Assembly (NCBI GenBank): GCA_905182015.1
Contig: CAJIZT010000006.1
Location: forward strand, 248,001-312,000
DNA length: 64,000 nucleotides
Origin: an alpha proteobacterium MED-G09
GTDB lineage: Bacteria > Pseudomonadota > Alphaproteobacteria > MED-G09
Reading direction: 5' to 3'
A program made the position numbers and the translations under genes. Every line of letters starts with the position of its first letter. The stretch's first letter is position 1. Shown in pieces: positions 32,411-36,636 of this stretch. The notes beneath the pieces are model-generated. The model did no database searches, was not told the DNA's origin, and saw nothing but the letters and a program-made list of their open reading frames with translations.

Positions 32411-33535
32411 ATGAGTAAATTTAAATTTTTATTAAAAAAAAGTGATAATAATGCTAGGGCGGGCGTATTACAAACATCTCTGGGTGAAATAAAAACTCCT
32501 GCATTTATGCCGGTTGCTACACAGGGAGCGATAAAATCGACACCTATAAATATCATAGAGGAAATAGGCTATGAAATGATTTTAAGCAATACCTACCATA
32601 TTCTTTTAAGACCAGGGTTGGAAGTTATTGAAAAATTTGGAAGCCTATCTAAATTTATGAACTGGAATAAACCAATTTTAACAGATTCAGGTGGATTTCA
32701 AGTAATGTCATTATCAAAATTAAGAAAAATAAACAAAAATGGTGTAACATTTCAATCTCATATTGACGGATCATCTCACCTATTAACTCCAGAAAATGTT
32801 GTTGAAACTCAGAATATAATTGGATCTAATATACAAATGGTGCTTGATGAATGTACGCCATACCCCTCAACACACGAAAGCGCAGAAAAGTCGATGAACC
32901 TATCAATTGATTGGGCGGAAAGAGCCAGAAAAAAATTTCTTAGTACAAAGCTAAGGTCAGATGCGCAGTTTGGAATAGTTCAAGGAAGTATTTATGAAGA
33001 TCTGAGGATTAAATCAGCATTAGAAACAATTAACATCGATTTTGATGGCTATGCAGTTGGTGGACTAGCTGTCGGAGAGGGGCATGATGAGATGGTTAAG
33101 GTATTAAAGTACACCCTTCCTATCCTTCCTGATAACAAGGTGAGGTATTTAATGGGTGTAGGGCGTCCTGAAAATATAATCGAATCTGTAGCAGAGGGTA
33201 TAGATATTTTTGATTGTGTTATTCCGACACGAGAAGGTAGACACGGTCATGCCTACTGCAAGACAGGTAATCTCAAATTAAAGAATCAAAAGTATGCTGA
33301 CGATCACTCACCACTTGACGAGGAATCAAATTTTAGTTTTTCGAAGAGGTTTTCGAAAAGCTACATTCATCATTTAATTAAAAGTAATGAGCCCTTAGGA
33401 GGTATGATTATTTGCTGGCATAATCTTAATTACTATAAAGAATTGATGGCGGGTATAAGGGCTTCTATTTTAGAGGAGAGGTTTGATAATTTTAGGAAAG
33501 ATTTCTATTTTAAGAGAAGTGGATCTAAATCTTGA
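32411..33535 (+). CDS. tgt: Queuine/preQ1 tRNA-ribosyltransferase lacking zinc cysteines
   Basis: The 374-residue protein is a TIM-barrel tRNA-guanine transglycosylase, which swaps guanine 34 for preQ1. Active-site aspartates are kept: D92 in ILTDSGGFQVMS and the nucleophile D268 in IFDCVIPTREGRHGHAY. MVLDECTPYPS and the GGLAVGE loop are also normal. The zinc site is not: where E. coli has PECDCYTCRNYSRAYLHHL, this protein reads EESNFSFSKRFSKSYIHHL. The three cysteines are replaced by S306, F308 and S311, while the histidine ligand equivalent (H337) remains. It overlaps the 3' end of a converging lipoprotein gene by 31 nt. Confidence 0.93.
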   Translation: MSKFKFLLKKSDNNARAGVLQTSLGEIKTPAFMPVATQGAIKSTPINIIEEIGYEMILSNTYHILLRPGLEVIEKFGSLSKFMNWNKPILTDSGGFQVMSLSKLRKINKNGVTFQSHIDGSSHLLTPENVVETQNIIGSNIQMVLDECTPYPSTHESAEKSMNLSIDWAERARKKFLSTKLRSDAQFGIVQGSIYEDLRIKSALETINIDFDGYAVGGLAVGEGHDEMVKVLKYTLPILPDNKVRYLMGVGRPENIIESVAEGIDIFDCVIPTREGRHGHAYCKTGNLKLKNQKYADDHSPLDEESNFSFSKRFSKSYIHHLIKSNEPLGGMIICWHNLNYYKELMAGIRASILEERFDNFRKDFYFKRSGSKS

Positions 33536-33774
33536 TTTAAACTTTCCATATTATCATTTGTATTATTATTTTCTTCACCATTAACTTTATCAGTTTTCAC
33601 TGCCTCAATACAATCGTCAGATTCAATGCCAGCAGCAGCACAGACTAGCTTTCCTGCAACATCAGGAGTTTCTTTAGTTTTTAAAATATTAATTCTTTCA
33701 CCGATTTTTTCAACAGTTGAACAAGAATTCAAAAGTAAAAGTGTAAAAAGAAAAATGATAGTTTTAAACTTCAA
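33505..33774 (-). CDS. Small predicted lipoprotein
   Basis: The 89-residue protein has a signal peptide ending in a lipobox (LLLNSC, cysteine at residue 18), so it is probably lipid-anchored. The remainder is acidic and asparagine-rich, with two further cysteines (LVCAAAGIESDDC) that could form a disulfide. The start is a TTG at 33774 with GAGG 7 nt upstream, and no in-frame ATG is available. The end runs 31 nt into tgt on the other strand. I do not recognise a family. Confidence 0.6.
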   Translation of the reverse strand: MKFKTIIFLFTLLLLNSCSTVEKIGERINILKTKETPDVAGKLVCAAAGIESDDCIEAVKTDKVNGEENNNTNDNMESLNQDLDPLLLK

Positions 33775-33921: not shown

Positions 33922-33997
33922 GGGCCCTTAGCTCAGTTGGTAGAGCAGCTGACTTTTAATCAGCTTGTCGCAGGTTCGAACCCCGCAGGGCTCACCA
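33922..33997 (+). tRNA. tRNA-Lys (anticodon UUU)
   Basis: All parts of a 76-nt tRNA are visible. The acceptor GGGCCCT pairs with AGGGCTC, D-stem GCTC pairs with GAGC, and anticodon stem GCTGA/TCAGC encloses CTTTTAA with TTT as anticodon. The 5-nt variable loop TTGTC, T-arm and encoded ACCA end follow. The T-stem (GCAGG/CCCGC) has one A-C mismatch at positions 51-63, where E. coli tRNA-Lys has A-U. An 8-bp inverted repeat (TACCTTGG at 33908-33915, CCAAGGTA at 33995-34002) brackets the gene and may help processing. Its 3' half is duplicated at 35052. Confidence 0.97.
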
Positions 33998-34030
33998 AGG
34001 TATTTAAGGCTAAATTCAGCCATTATAAGT
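33952..34030 (+). repeat. Direct repeat, copy 1 (tRNA-Lys 3' half plus flank; att-like)
   Basis: The segment from tRNA nucleotide 31 (anticodon stem) to 33 bp past the tRNA end recurs exactly 1,100 bp downstream. Bases 33952-34015 (64 bp) are identical to 35052-35115. Including two mismatches, the match reaches 34030 (79 bp). Tyrosine integrases often recombine in the anticodon loop and leave the 3' part of the tRNA at the far end of the element, which fits this picture. Confidence 0.93.
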
Positions 34031-34174
34031 CTTTACCAACTTCCAAATATTTCTTAAAAAACCTCCAAAATATAAATGTTGGACAAAAAACTTTGACTTA
34101 GCTTTTTCTAGCAATGATTTGCATTCTTATTTAAGTGAGGTAATCTAATTTTAACGAAATGGGGTTGGGGGAAA

Positions 34175-34231
34175 ATCAATAAAATACTTATAGCGTTAGT
34201 CTTAGCAGTTGTGATGAGTGGGAATAAATGA
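34175..34231 (+). pseudogene. Decayed signal-peptide gene start
   Basis: The frame reads INKILIALVLAVVMSGNK and then TGA. It closely resembles the start of the secreted protein at 36259 (MNKLLIALVLVIAMG), and the upstream DNA is similar too. The start codon position now reads ATC instead of ATG, and the frame closes after 18 codons. It looks like a broken relative of that gene. Confidence 0.5.
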
Positions 34232-34270
34232 TTGCGAAAGAACTGTATATTTTCATAATTGGAGTAAAAA

Positions 34271-34897
34271 ATGAAGAATAATTATAGAATTATGTGTGCT
34301 CTCATTGCATGGGTGGTGCTATCTCTTAGATTTGTCGATATGTTGATAATCGGTGAGTACAGTAGTATTGCTGAAACACTGTTTGTCTATTTTGGGTATT
34401 TCACAGTTTGGGCTAATATCCTTATTGCGATTGCGTTTACAGCGCCATTACTTAATCCAGATAGAAAGTTATCTAATTTTTTCATGCGTCCTGCCGTTCG
34501 TGCAGCCCTTGCATCCTATATTCTTATGGTGTCGGTTGTTTATCATATACTGATCGTGCCTTATTGGGATCCTCAAGGTTTCACTTGGTTGACCGCTACA
34601 GGCTTGAATACAGTCATGCCCATTCTCTATATTATCGATTGGCTATTCTTTGCTGAAAAGCGACCGATTTTCTATAAAAATCTTCCTTATTGGCTCATAT
34701 TTCCTGCCGTTTATGGAGTGACTTCAATCATCCGAGGGTTATTAACTAATGTTTACCCTTACCCATTTTTGAACGTAACTGAGCTAGGTATTGGAAATGT
34801 ATTATTCAATATGATCGGATTAGTTGCGGTTTTTGCTGTGGTTGGCCCTATTTTTATCGTGGTAGCACATCTGATTTCTGATAGAATCGAAACCTAG
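34271..34897 (+). CDS. Pr6Pr-like membrane protein
   Basis: The 208-residue protein has six hydrophobic helices and resembles the bacterial Pr6Pr family (related to eukaryotic FAR-17a/AIG1 membrane hydrolases). Visible are the first-helix region with FVDMLIIGEYSS, the YFGYFTVWANILIAIAF second helix, SVVYHILIVPYWDP with a conserved histidine, TGLNTVMPILYIIDWLFF, and LIFPAVYGVTSIIRG. The His-N-x-x-x-P pattern typical of the family is partly kept (LNTVMP follows a Thr/Leu). The substrate is unknown. It is the only intact gene between the tRNA-Lys repeats. Confidence 0.65.
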   Translation: MKNNYRIMCALIAWVVLSLRFVDMLIIGEYSSIAETLFVYFGYFTVWANILIAIAFTAPLLNPDRKLSNFFMRPAVRAALASYILMVSVVYHILIVPYWDPQGFTWLTATGLNTVMPILYIIDWLFFAEKRPIFYKNLPYWLIFPAVYGVTSIIRGLLTNVYPYPFLNVTELGIGNVLFNMIGLVAVFAVVGPIFIVVAHLISDRIET

Positions 34898-35049
34898 AAA
34901 ACTTTAGCTATCTTTACTTCGGTGATTTTAATAATGCACCTGGGCATGAGGGAAATGCTTTACTTGATAGAAATTCATGGCTAAAAATTTTAGCTGAAGT
35001 TAAAGATTATGCTGTTTCCTCTTGGCCTGTTCAACCAAGTCGTTACTAA
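34885..35049 (+). pseudogene. C-terminal fragment of an unidentified gene
   Basis: Right after the Pr6Pr-like gene an open frame without a start codon reads protein-like sequence to a stop at 35047-35049. It includes YLYFGDFNNAPGHEGN and NSWLKILAEVKDYAVSSWPV and ends PSRY. Residue composition (Trp, Pro, Gly, acidic) is that of a real protein end rather than random A/T-rich frame. It stops 2 bp before the right-hand direct repeat. I do not recognise the family. It may be the tail of a gene truncated when the element lost DNA. Confidence 0.45.
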
Positions 35050-35051
35050 TA

Positions 35052-35130
35052 ACTTTTAATCAGCTTGTCGCAGGTTCGAACCCCGCAGGGCTCACCAAGG
35101 TATTTAAGGCTAAATACAGCCATTACAAGT
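35052..35130 (+). repeat. Direct repeat, copy 2 (tRNA-Lys 3' fragment; att-like)
   Basis: A partial tRNA-Lys (nucleotides 31-76, including the encoded CCA) with 33 bp of flank, repeating 33952-34030. It has no acceptor 5' strand or D-arm, so it cannot be a functional tRNA. It marks the right border of the putative element. Confidence 0.93.
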
Positions 35131-35141
35131 CGATTTTGACT

Positions 35142-36091: not shown

Positions 36092-36177
36092 TGTAAGATA
36101 CTAACCGTTAATTACCCAAGAACCAATAGAGGAGTTCTTTTGGTTGGATTGCGGATAAGGTTTGCTCTTAAAATTTT

Positions 36178-36310
36178 GACGTAGCTTTTTTTGAGAGTTA
36201 TTTGTATTATTATTAAATCAAATAATCTAATTTTAAACAAACTAACAGAGTAGGGTAGATGAATAAATTATTGATAGCTCTAGTTTTGGTAATTGCAATG
36301 GGTGCTGGTG
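36178..36310 (+). repeat. Diverged repeat of the segment at 34094-34222
   Basis: About 125 bp spanning the leader and signal-peptide codons of the gene at 36259 resemble 34094-34222. Shared blocks are GAC-x-TAGCTTTTT, AATCTAATTTTAA, and the NK-x-LIALVL coding stretch. A shorter third match, leader only, lies at 35797-35833 (TTTAGCTTTTTTATTAGTGA). The copies are imperfect, so this is a decayed duplication rather than a fresh one. Confidence 0.5.
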
Positions 36311-36636
36311 CTAAAGCTAAAAATGAAAGCATTGAAAGTCAGTGTAACTACTCAGGTACAGATATCAATATATCTCTTAAAATTGATTTAAATAATAAAA
36401 AAATATCTTTATCTGGTTTAACGAATTGTGAAATTAGCTCTATAGACGAAGTTAAGGTGCTGGGAAGATGCTCTCCACCAACATACAGTTCTTTGGATTT
36501 TATTCCAGAATATATAAATAAAACAGGCGTTGGGAGGTGGTCAATGAAGGTTTCTGATAAGTATGTTGTCGATGCAAAAGGTAATATTATCTATTTTGAG
36601 TACCTTTGTAAGAAAGGTCTGTTAGCTAATGAGTAA
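36259..36636 (+). CDS. Secreted protein of unknown function
   Basis: The 125-residue protein begins with a clear signal peptide (MNKLLIALVLVIAMGAGAKA, cleavage likely after residue 20). The mature part of about 105 residues contains four cysteines (at QCNYSG, NCEISS, RCSPPT and LCKKG) that could form two disulfides, and many beta-favouring residues. No family is recognised. Its stop overlaps the start of the next gene by 8 nt, so both are translated together. A decayed copy of its start lies at 34175. Confidence 0.6.
   Translation: MNKLLIALVLVIAMGAGAKAKNESIESQCNYSGTDINISLKIDLNNKKISLSGLTNCEISSIDEVKVLGRCSPPTYSSLDFIPEYINKTGVGRWSMKVSDKYVVDAKGNIIYFEYLCKKGLLANE

Follow-up and report, generated by a model that had tools for sequence, protein, structure and literature searches.

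Phage satellites usually carry an integrase of their own, and integrases of the lambda type bind their arm sites through the N-terminus. Additive flexible genomic islands at tRNA genes have been described in Alteromonas, in Ca. Actinomarinales and in Ca. Methylopumilus (PMC7771536, PMC10872708, PMC4119200). Cis-mobilizable elements (CIMEs) and the integrase-less ssrA islands of Dehalococcoides are flanked by att sites, form tandem arrays at one RNA gene and are thought to move by accretion (PMC3146451), and tycheposons are elements of 4-200 kb that carry a tyrosine recombinase (PMC10872708). Among close relatives in the cluster K mycobacteriophages, arm sites of 11 bp covary with the N-terminus of the integrase (PMC3203893). 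Additive tRNA islands, tRNA-fragment repeats, integrase-less att-flanked elements and the covariation of arms with the integrase N-terminus are each already described. In the open-access literature searched, neither the combination of arm-matched cassettes and identified phages nor any work on phages of the PS1/OCS116 clade turned up.

The locus considered here lies in a 64,000-nucleotide stretch of DNA (the window), in which the 3' half of a tRNA-Lys gene recurs downstream. With a probability of roughly three in four, positions 33922-35131 are an eroded member of a family of gene cassettes that carry phage att sites, sit at tRNA-Lys(ttt) and would have been moved by phage integrase. In a group of temperate siphoviruses, the tRNA-Lys 3' half serves as the attP core and lies between tandem 11-nt arms, beside the integrase; other cassettes share this core, together with arm sites and a promoter-like site, and have one or two cargo genes in the integrase's place.

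The direct repeat and the 1.1-kb insert

The two copies of the repeat (Table 1) are 80 nt long and agree at 78 positions, the first 65 nt being perfect; the repeat of the original prediction is thus real, and its length needs only a small correction from 79 bp with 64 perfect. The copied part begins at nt 31 of tRNA-Lys and recurs with a start-to-start spacing of 1,100 bp, as had been stated. The 7-nt anticodon loop, CTTTTAA, starts one nucleotide later (nt 32), and the A just before it matches too. This loop sequence is the starting point of every partial tRNA copy in the family, and in genus g1 the preceding A is matched as well. The proposal of an att site in the anticodon loop is supported.

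Table 1. Features of the tRNA-Lys locus in the window.
Position	Strand	Feature	Basis or remark
33922..33997	+	tRNA-Lys (ttt), intact, attB gene	ARAGORN; 3' of tgt and a small lipoprotein gene
33952..34031	+	Left repeat copy (tRNA 3' half and 34 nt of flank)	
33953..33959	+	CTTTTAA anticodon loop, tRNA-Lys nt 32-38; putative 7-bp crossover segment	
34032..34110	+	P'-arm-like phage flank	blastn against phages L053 and L052
about 34076-34088	+	Single degenerate arm site, ATGTTGGACAAAA	Within the P'-arm-like flank
34093-34098	+	Promoter-like TTGACT	Within the P'-arm-like flank
34175..34231	+	Leader stub with signal-peptide start, (I)NKILIALVLAVVMSGNK and stop	Read from sequence
34271..34897	+	Cargo gene, 208-aa membrane protein of the Pr6Pr family, intact	NF038065
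34897..35049	+	C-terminal gene fragment, ending WPVQPSRY and stop	Ends 2 nt before the right repeat
35052..35131	+	Right repeat copy; first 73 nt (35052-35124) identical to attP of phage contig L052	blastn
36155..36636	+	Putative older cassette fossil: second promoter/leader block before a 125-aa secreted-protein gene	Without tRNA fragment

There is no integrase between the repeat copies, and the gene content is as originally described, namely one intact membrane-protein gene plus two fragments, the C-terminal fragment and the leader stub. The stub is start-less, with ATC where relatives have ATG. It resembles intact leaders in the genomes G006 (locus L040) and G007 (L043), and a signal-peptide start is common to other cassette genes. 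The Pr6Pr gene scores 139 bits against NF038065 (cut-off 30). Its DNA is 90% identical to a copy located elsewhere in G007 (contig C13), compared with 77% for the adjacent core region, a difference that is consistent with lateral gain. The C-terminal fragment occupies the place expected for a P arm, and no full-length source or relative of it was found among the fetched loci. The right end of the insert was considered as a P arm and rejected, being unlike any phage or cassette P region (z about 0).

With the tRNA excluded, the left flank aligns with the phages at 79-80% over 120-124 nt (E 1e-25 to 1e-27), and it matches the P' arm and promoter region of L053 over 160 nt while being 11 nt shorter, i.e. 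one arm unit is missing; a left flank short by one unit is also present in G006. The status of the window copy as a cassette rests on this left side, on the repeat and on its relatives, the P arm being missing. The copy is probably an immobile, fixed cassette, eroded by the loss of one left arm site and of the whole right arm region. That this copy is mobile, as the original prediction had left possible, is not supported: no right arm sites are present, and of the two left ones only one is kept. The two options offered at the outset, a decayed island or a small satellite moved by an outside integrase, merge into one: the relatives are integrase-less cassettes with a phage-type attP, and the window copy is a decayed one.

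A block of promoter and signal-peptide leader recurs before different genes across the tRNA-Lys region (window 34085-34231 and 36155-36304; loci L117, L119 and L120). The block at 36155-36304 gave a match at G000:C6:284170-284304 (70%, E 1.2e-7), and this second, fossil promoter and leader suggests an older cassette.

Phages with the tRNA half and their probable arm sites

Five siphovirus contigs of IMG/VR carry the same tRNA-Lys half beside a tyrosine integrase, in the form of genus g1 in L052 and L053 and in the form of g2 in L122, L123 and L131. All five have tail genes and a 99-aa gene ahead of the core; on its other side comes a tyrosine integrase (449-477 aa), either directly or past one small gene. 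Pfam or PHROG matches confirmed the integrases of L052, L053 and L131 and the tail genes in L052 and L122; the integrases of L122 and L123 align with those of the other three. No complete tRNA was detected by ARAGORN in the five contigs, as expected of attP. Going by the tRNA match only, the hosts of these phages would belong to this clade.

In the 18 family genomes, integrase A1 (that of L052 and L053) had no match and integrase A3 had only weak, partial ones (E 2e-6 to 4e-4). The latter were rejected as phage integrase, several of them coinciding with Phage_integrase matches that are resident Xer-type recombinases. Among named phages, the phage integrase found a single match, at 29.5%. The viral contigs yielded no Pr6Pr gene and no helper phage with the arms of G005 or of G014 cassette 1.

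The arm scan, a search for 11-nt tandem units around the core in the five phages and in the cassettes, located such units at -149 to -164 and +106 to +122 of the core in 5/5 phages, in G005 and in cassette 1 of G014. The unit is identical on both sides of each element and differs between most elements. Across the 18 genomes the pattern GTTNNNNCAAAGTTNNNNCAAAA has six matches, all in tRNA-Lys cassettes, and its reversed control has none. The arm GTTTCCGC was not found in the viral contigs; there, the wider GTTTYYGC pattern occurs in L131 and in L130, the second of which, a tail-gene contig without the tRNA core, was dismissed as a chance match and not as a phage with this attP. The left arms on the cassette side in G015 are identical to the arms of L131.

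L122 (8250-10264) and L131 (3250-5560) are near-identical around attP apart from the arm copies. In the two integrases, 393 of the 399 residues from position 51 onwards are the same, against 33 of the 50 before it. Since these phages differ mainly in their arm copies and in the first ~50 residues of the integrase, the 11-nt motifs are very probably integrase arm sites.

Cassettes in related genomes and alternative origins

The relatives that have the same tRNA half are marine alphaproteobacteria of the PS1 clade and OCS116 cluster, several of them single-cell genomes. The order tgt - tRNA-Lys(ttt) is kept in 11 family genomes of three genera, and the sequence 3' of the tRNA varies. A small lipoprotein gene, convergent with tgt (window 33505-33774), is retained between tgt and tRNA-Lys in relatives. 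The variable stretch 3' of the tRNA in the window includes a rhodopsin gene (PF01036; 37650-38345); in other genomes where it shares a contig with tRNA-Lys, the rhodopsin gene lies far from the tRNA (for example, about 93 kb in G005 and about 82 kb in G013).

At the same left edge, the single-cell genome G005 has an independent cassette of 2.2 kb (repeat 53 nt, spacing 2,182) that is without integrase and contains one TPR-TonB gene, unrelated to the content of the window's insert. G014 has three tandem copies of the tRNA half, i.e. two cassettes: the first encodes a GIY-YIG protein (PDC-S57, PADLOC) and an MrcB_N/HNH protein, and the second has a TauE-type transporter gene. The GIY-YIG and MrcB_N/HNH pair (L117 1023-2968) is a candidate anti-phage unit on a phage-att cassette. 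With different contents at one tRNA-Lys edge in G005 and in the G014 array, the suspicion of a recurrent insertion spot is supported.

In G012, the TauE cassette of G014 lies directly at tRNA-Lys, as opposed to second in line. From CTTTTAA on, copy 2 of G014 matches the tRNA, flank and TauE gene of G012 over 1 kb with an identity of about 96%; the main indel coincides with the arm site. On this alignment G014 and G012 form a filled and empty pair for cassette 1 of G014. The 96% identity is only mild evidence of transfer, because the core regions of the two genomes are already 93% identical. Sites with one repeat and no insert, as the original prediction had anticipated, exist in G004, G006, G007 and G008, although with other genes in the flanks; none of the relatives compared offers a precise empty site for the insert of the window, and the clean pair is G014/G012.

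Two complete cassettes (P arm, core and P' arm) were found, in the draft genomes G005 and G014 (cassette 1), and most tRNA-Lys loci have one arm site only and no right copy. In this small sample, an intact right arm is absent wherever a locus has a single left arm site, and a cassette may become fixed when it loses one tandem arm unit. At its right end, G014 cassette 1 is 92-93% identical to L122 and L131 over 169 nt, from the last phage-gene codons up to the core; given this match to the phage P region, the cassettes look like phage att regions in which cargo has replaced the integrase. At another tRNA gene, tRNA-Arg(tct) of G007, there is a satellite-like element (L043 3922-12034; G007:C24) with a 714-aa integrase, a capsid-protease fusion and an AlpA-like protein; its cargo gene has its promoter and leader in common with window 34114-34225.

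Other origins have to be weighed against this. A segmental duplication or assembly artefact of the tRNA end deserves hardly any credence: nothing favours it except the repeat itself, and it would explain neither the occurrence of the same edge with other contents in G005 and G014 nor a right copy whose first 73 nt are identical to a phage attP. An artefact of assembly is unlikely since the window's contig measures 341 kb, its two copies differ at two positions and two other genomes have the same structure. It is rather doubtful that the loci are grounded prophage remnants, whereby a phage decays to its att ends at tRNA-Lys, unrelated host genes drift in and cassettes never move as units. The composite and decayed insert of the window would suit such a history, as would the last phage-gene codons retained before the P arm of G014 cassette 1 and the one arm site, without right copy, at most tRNA-Lys loci. 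Grounding sits badly, however, with G005 and G014 cassette 1, where intact, matching arm pairs enclose only non-phage genes, with the tandem array of two cassettes in G014 and with a TauE cassette that adjoins the tRNA in G012 and is second in G014.

An ordinary additive island, brought in by an unrelated integrase or by homologous recombination across tRNA repeats and with no specific phage helper, has precedents in the tRNA-anchored cassette islands with tRNA-fragment repeats of other streamlined plankton (PMC7771536, PMC10872708). It is nevertheless quite improbable in view of paired arms at phage spacing, an arm pattern that occurs nowhere else in 18 genomes and cassette att flanks that are homologous to phage attP.

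Under the preferred reading, that of phage-att cassettes moved by phage integrase, the integrase would recombine attP with tRNA-Lys at the anticodon loop and so restore the tRNA. From the sequences we infer that phage integrases mobilise the cassettes in trans: an integrase of matching arm specificity would move them in this way, or in cis after side-by-side insertion. Each newcomer would enter at tRNA-Lys and displace the older cassette downstream, and the att-borne promoter of a cassette would drive its cargo. The window copy, with one left arm site and the right arm region lost, is probably fixed and now only carries the Pr6Pr gene. A wider and more tentative proposal, which we hold to be possible but would not presume, is that the cassettes are minimal mobile elements, made up of an att site, a promoter and one or two cargo genes, which parasitise the integrases of co-occurring temperate phages, with arm specificities diversifying in both, like a phage-powered integron at a single tRNA.

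If the reading of cassettes moved by phage integrase is true, it would provide a concrete mechanism for the gain and loss of single genes at tRNA islands in streamlined, mostly uncultured ocean bacteria; the att sites of tRNA islands would be phage att sites, and the arm sequence would predict which phage moves which cassette. L122 and L131 also offer a natural swap of domain and site, on which arm recognition by tyrosine integrases can be tested directly. With a candidate anti-phage gene pair on one cassette (G014 cassette 1), phages may even be spreading defence genes.

Comparison with known systems

As in additive flexible islands, cassettes here lie beside a tRNA, carry a tRNA-fragment repeat and vary in content between genomes; in those islands, too, a repeated tRNA fragment at the distal end identifies recent cassettes (PMC7771536, PMC10872708, PMC4119200). 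In contrast, the cassettes described here have a phage-type attP and paired arms, and can be set beside identified phages that have this attP along with an integrase. With CIMEs and ssrA islands they share att flanks, the lack of an integrase and a tandem arrangement at one RNA gene. Both attL and attR, with no integrase inside, are present in G005 and G014 cassette 1, and the window's insert has the repeat and the left arm only. The tandem array of G014 is consistent with movement by accretion with an autonomous relative. For the ssrA islands, kinship with integrative mobilizable islands that have a serine recombinase has been discussed (PMC3146451), whereas here the source would be a temperate phage with a tyrosine integrase, and each cassette carries one or two cargo genes.

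Phage satellites (PICI, PICMI, P4-like) and tycheposons resemble the cassettes in their specific integration sites and in their dependence on phages or recombinases (PMC11389934, PMC10803314). Unlike them, the cassettes have no integrase and no recognised packaging or replication gene: their genes are Pr6Pr, TonB/TPR, GIY-YIG with MrcB_N/HNH, and TauE, with none of the integrase, replication or packaging-hijack genes of a satellite. In size (1.1-2.3 kb) and in the absence of a recombinase from the cassettes of G000, G005 and G014 they also depart from tycheposons. Integrons and CALINs likewise have single-gene cassettes, an array at one site, a promoter at the entry point and an integrase that is possibly elsewhere (PMC11389934); on the other hand, the site here is a tRNA anticodon loop with arms instead of attC/attI, and the promoter arrives with the cassette. 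The attP organisation of a temperate phage, with paired arms at a fixed distance, a tRNA core and a tyrosine integrase, is seen in the five phage contigs, and the window's insert has a left-arm remnant only. In cluster K mycobacteriophages, 11-bp arms vary with the integrase N-terminus in phages only (PMC3203893), whereas at tRNA-Lys such arms are carried by integrase-less cassettes too.
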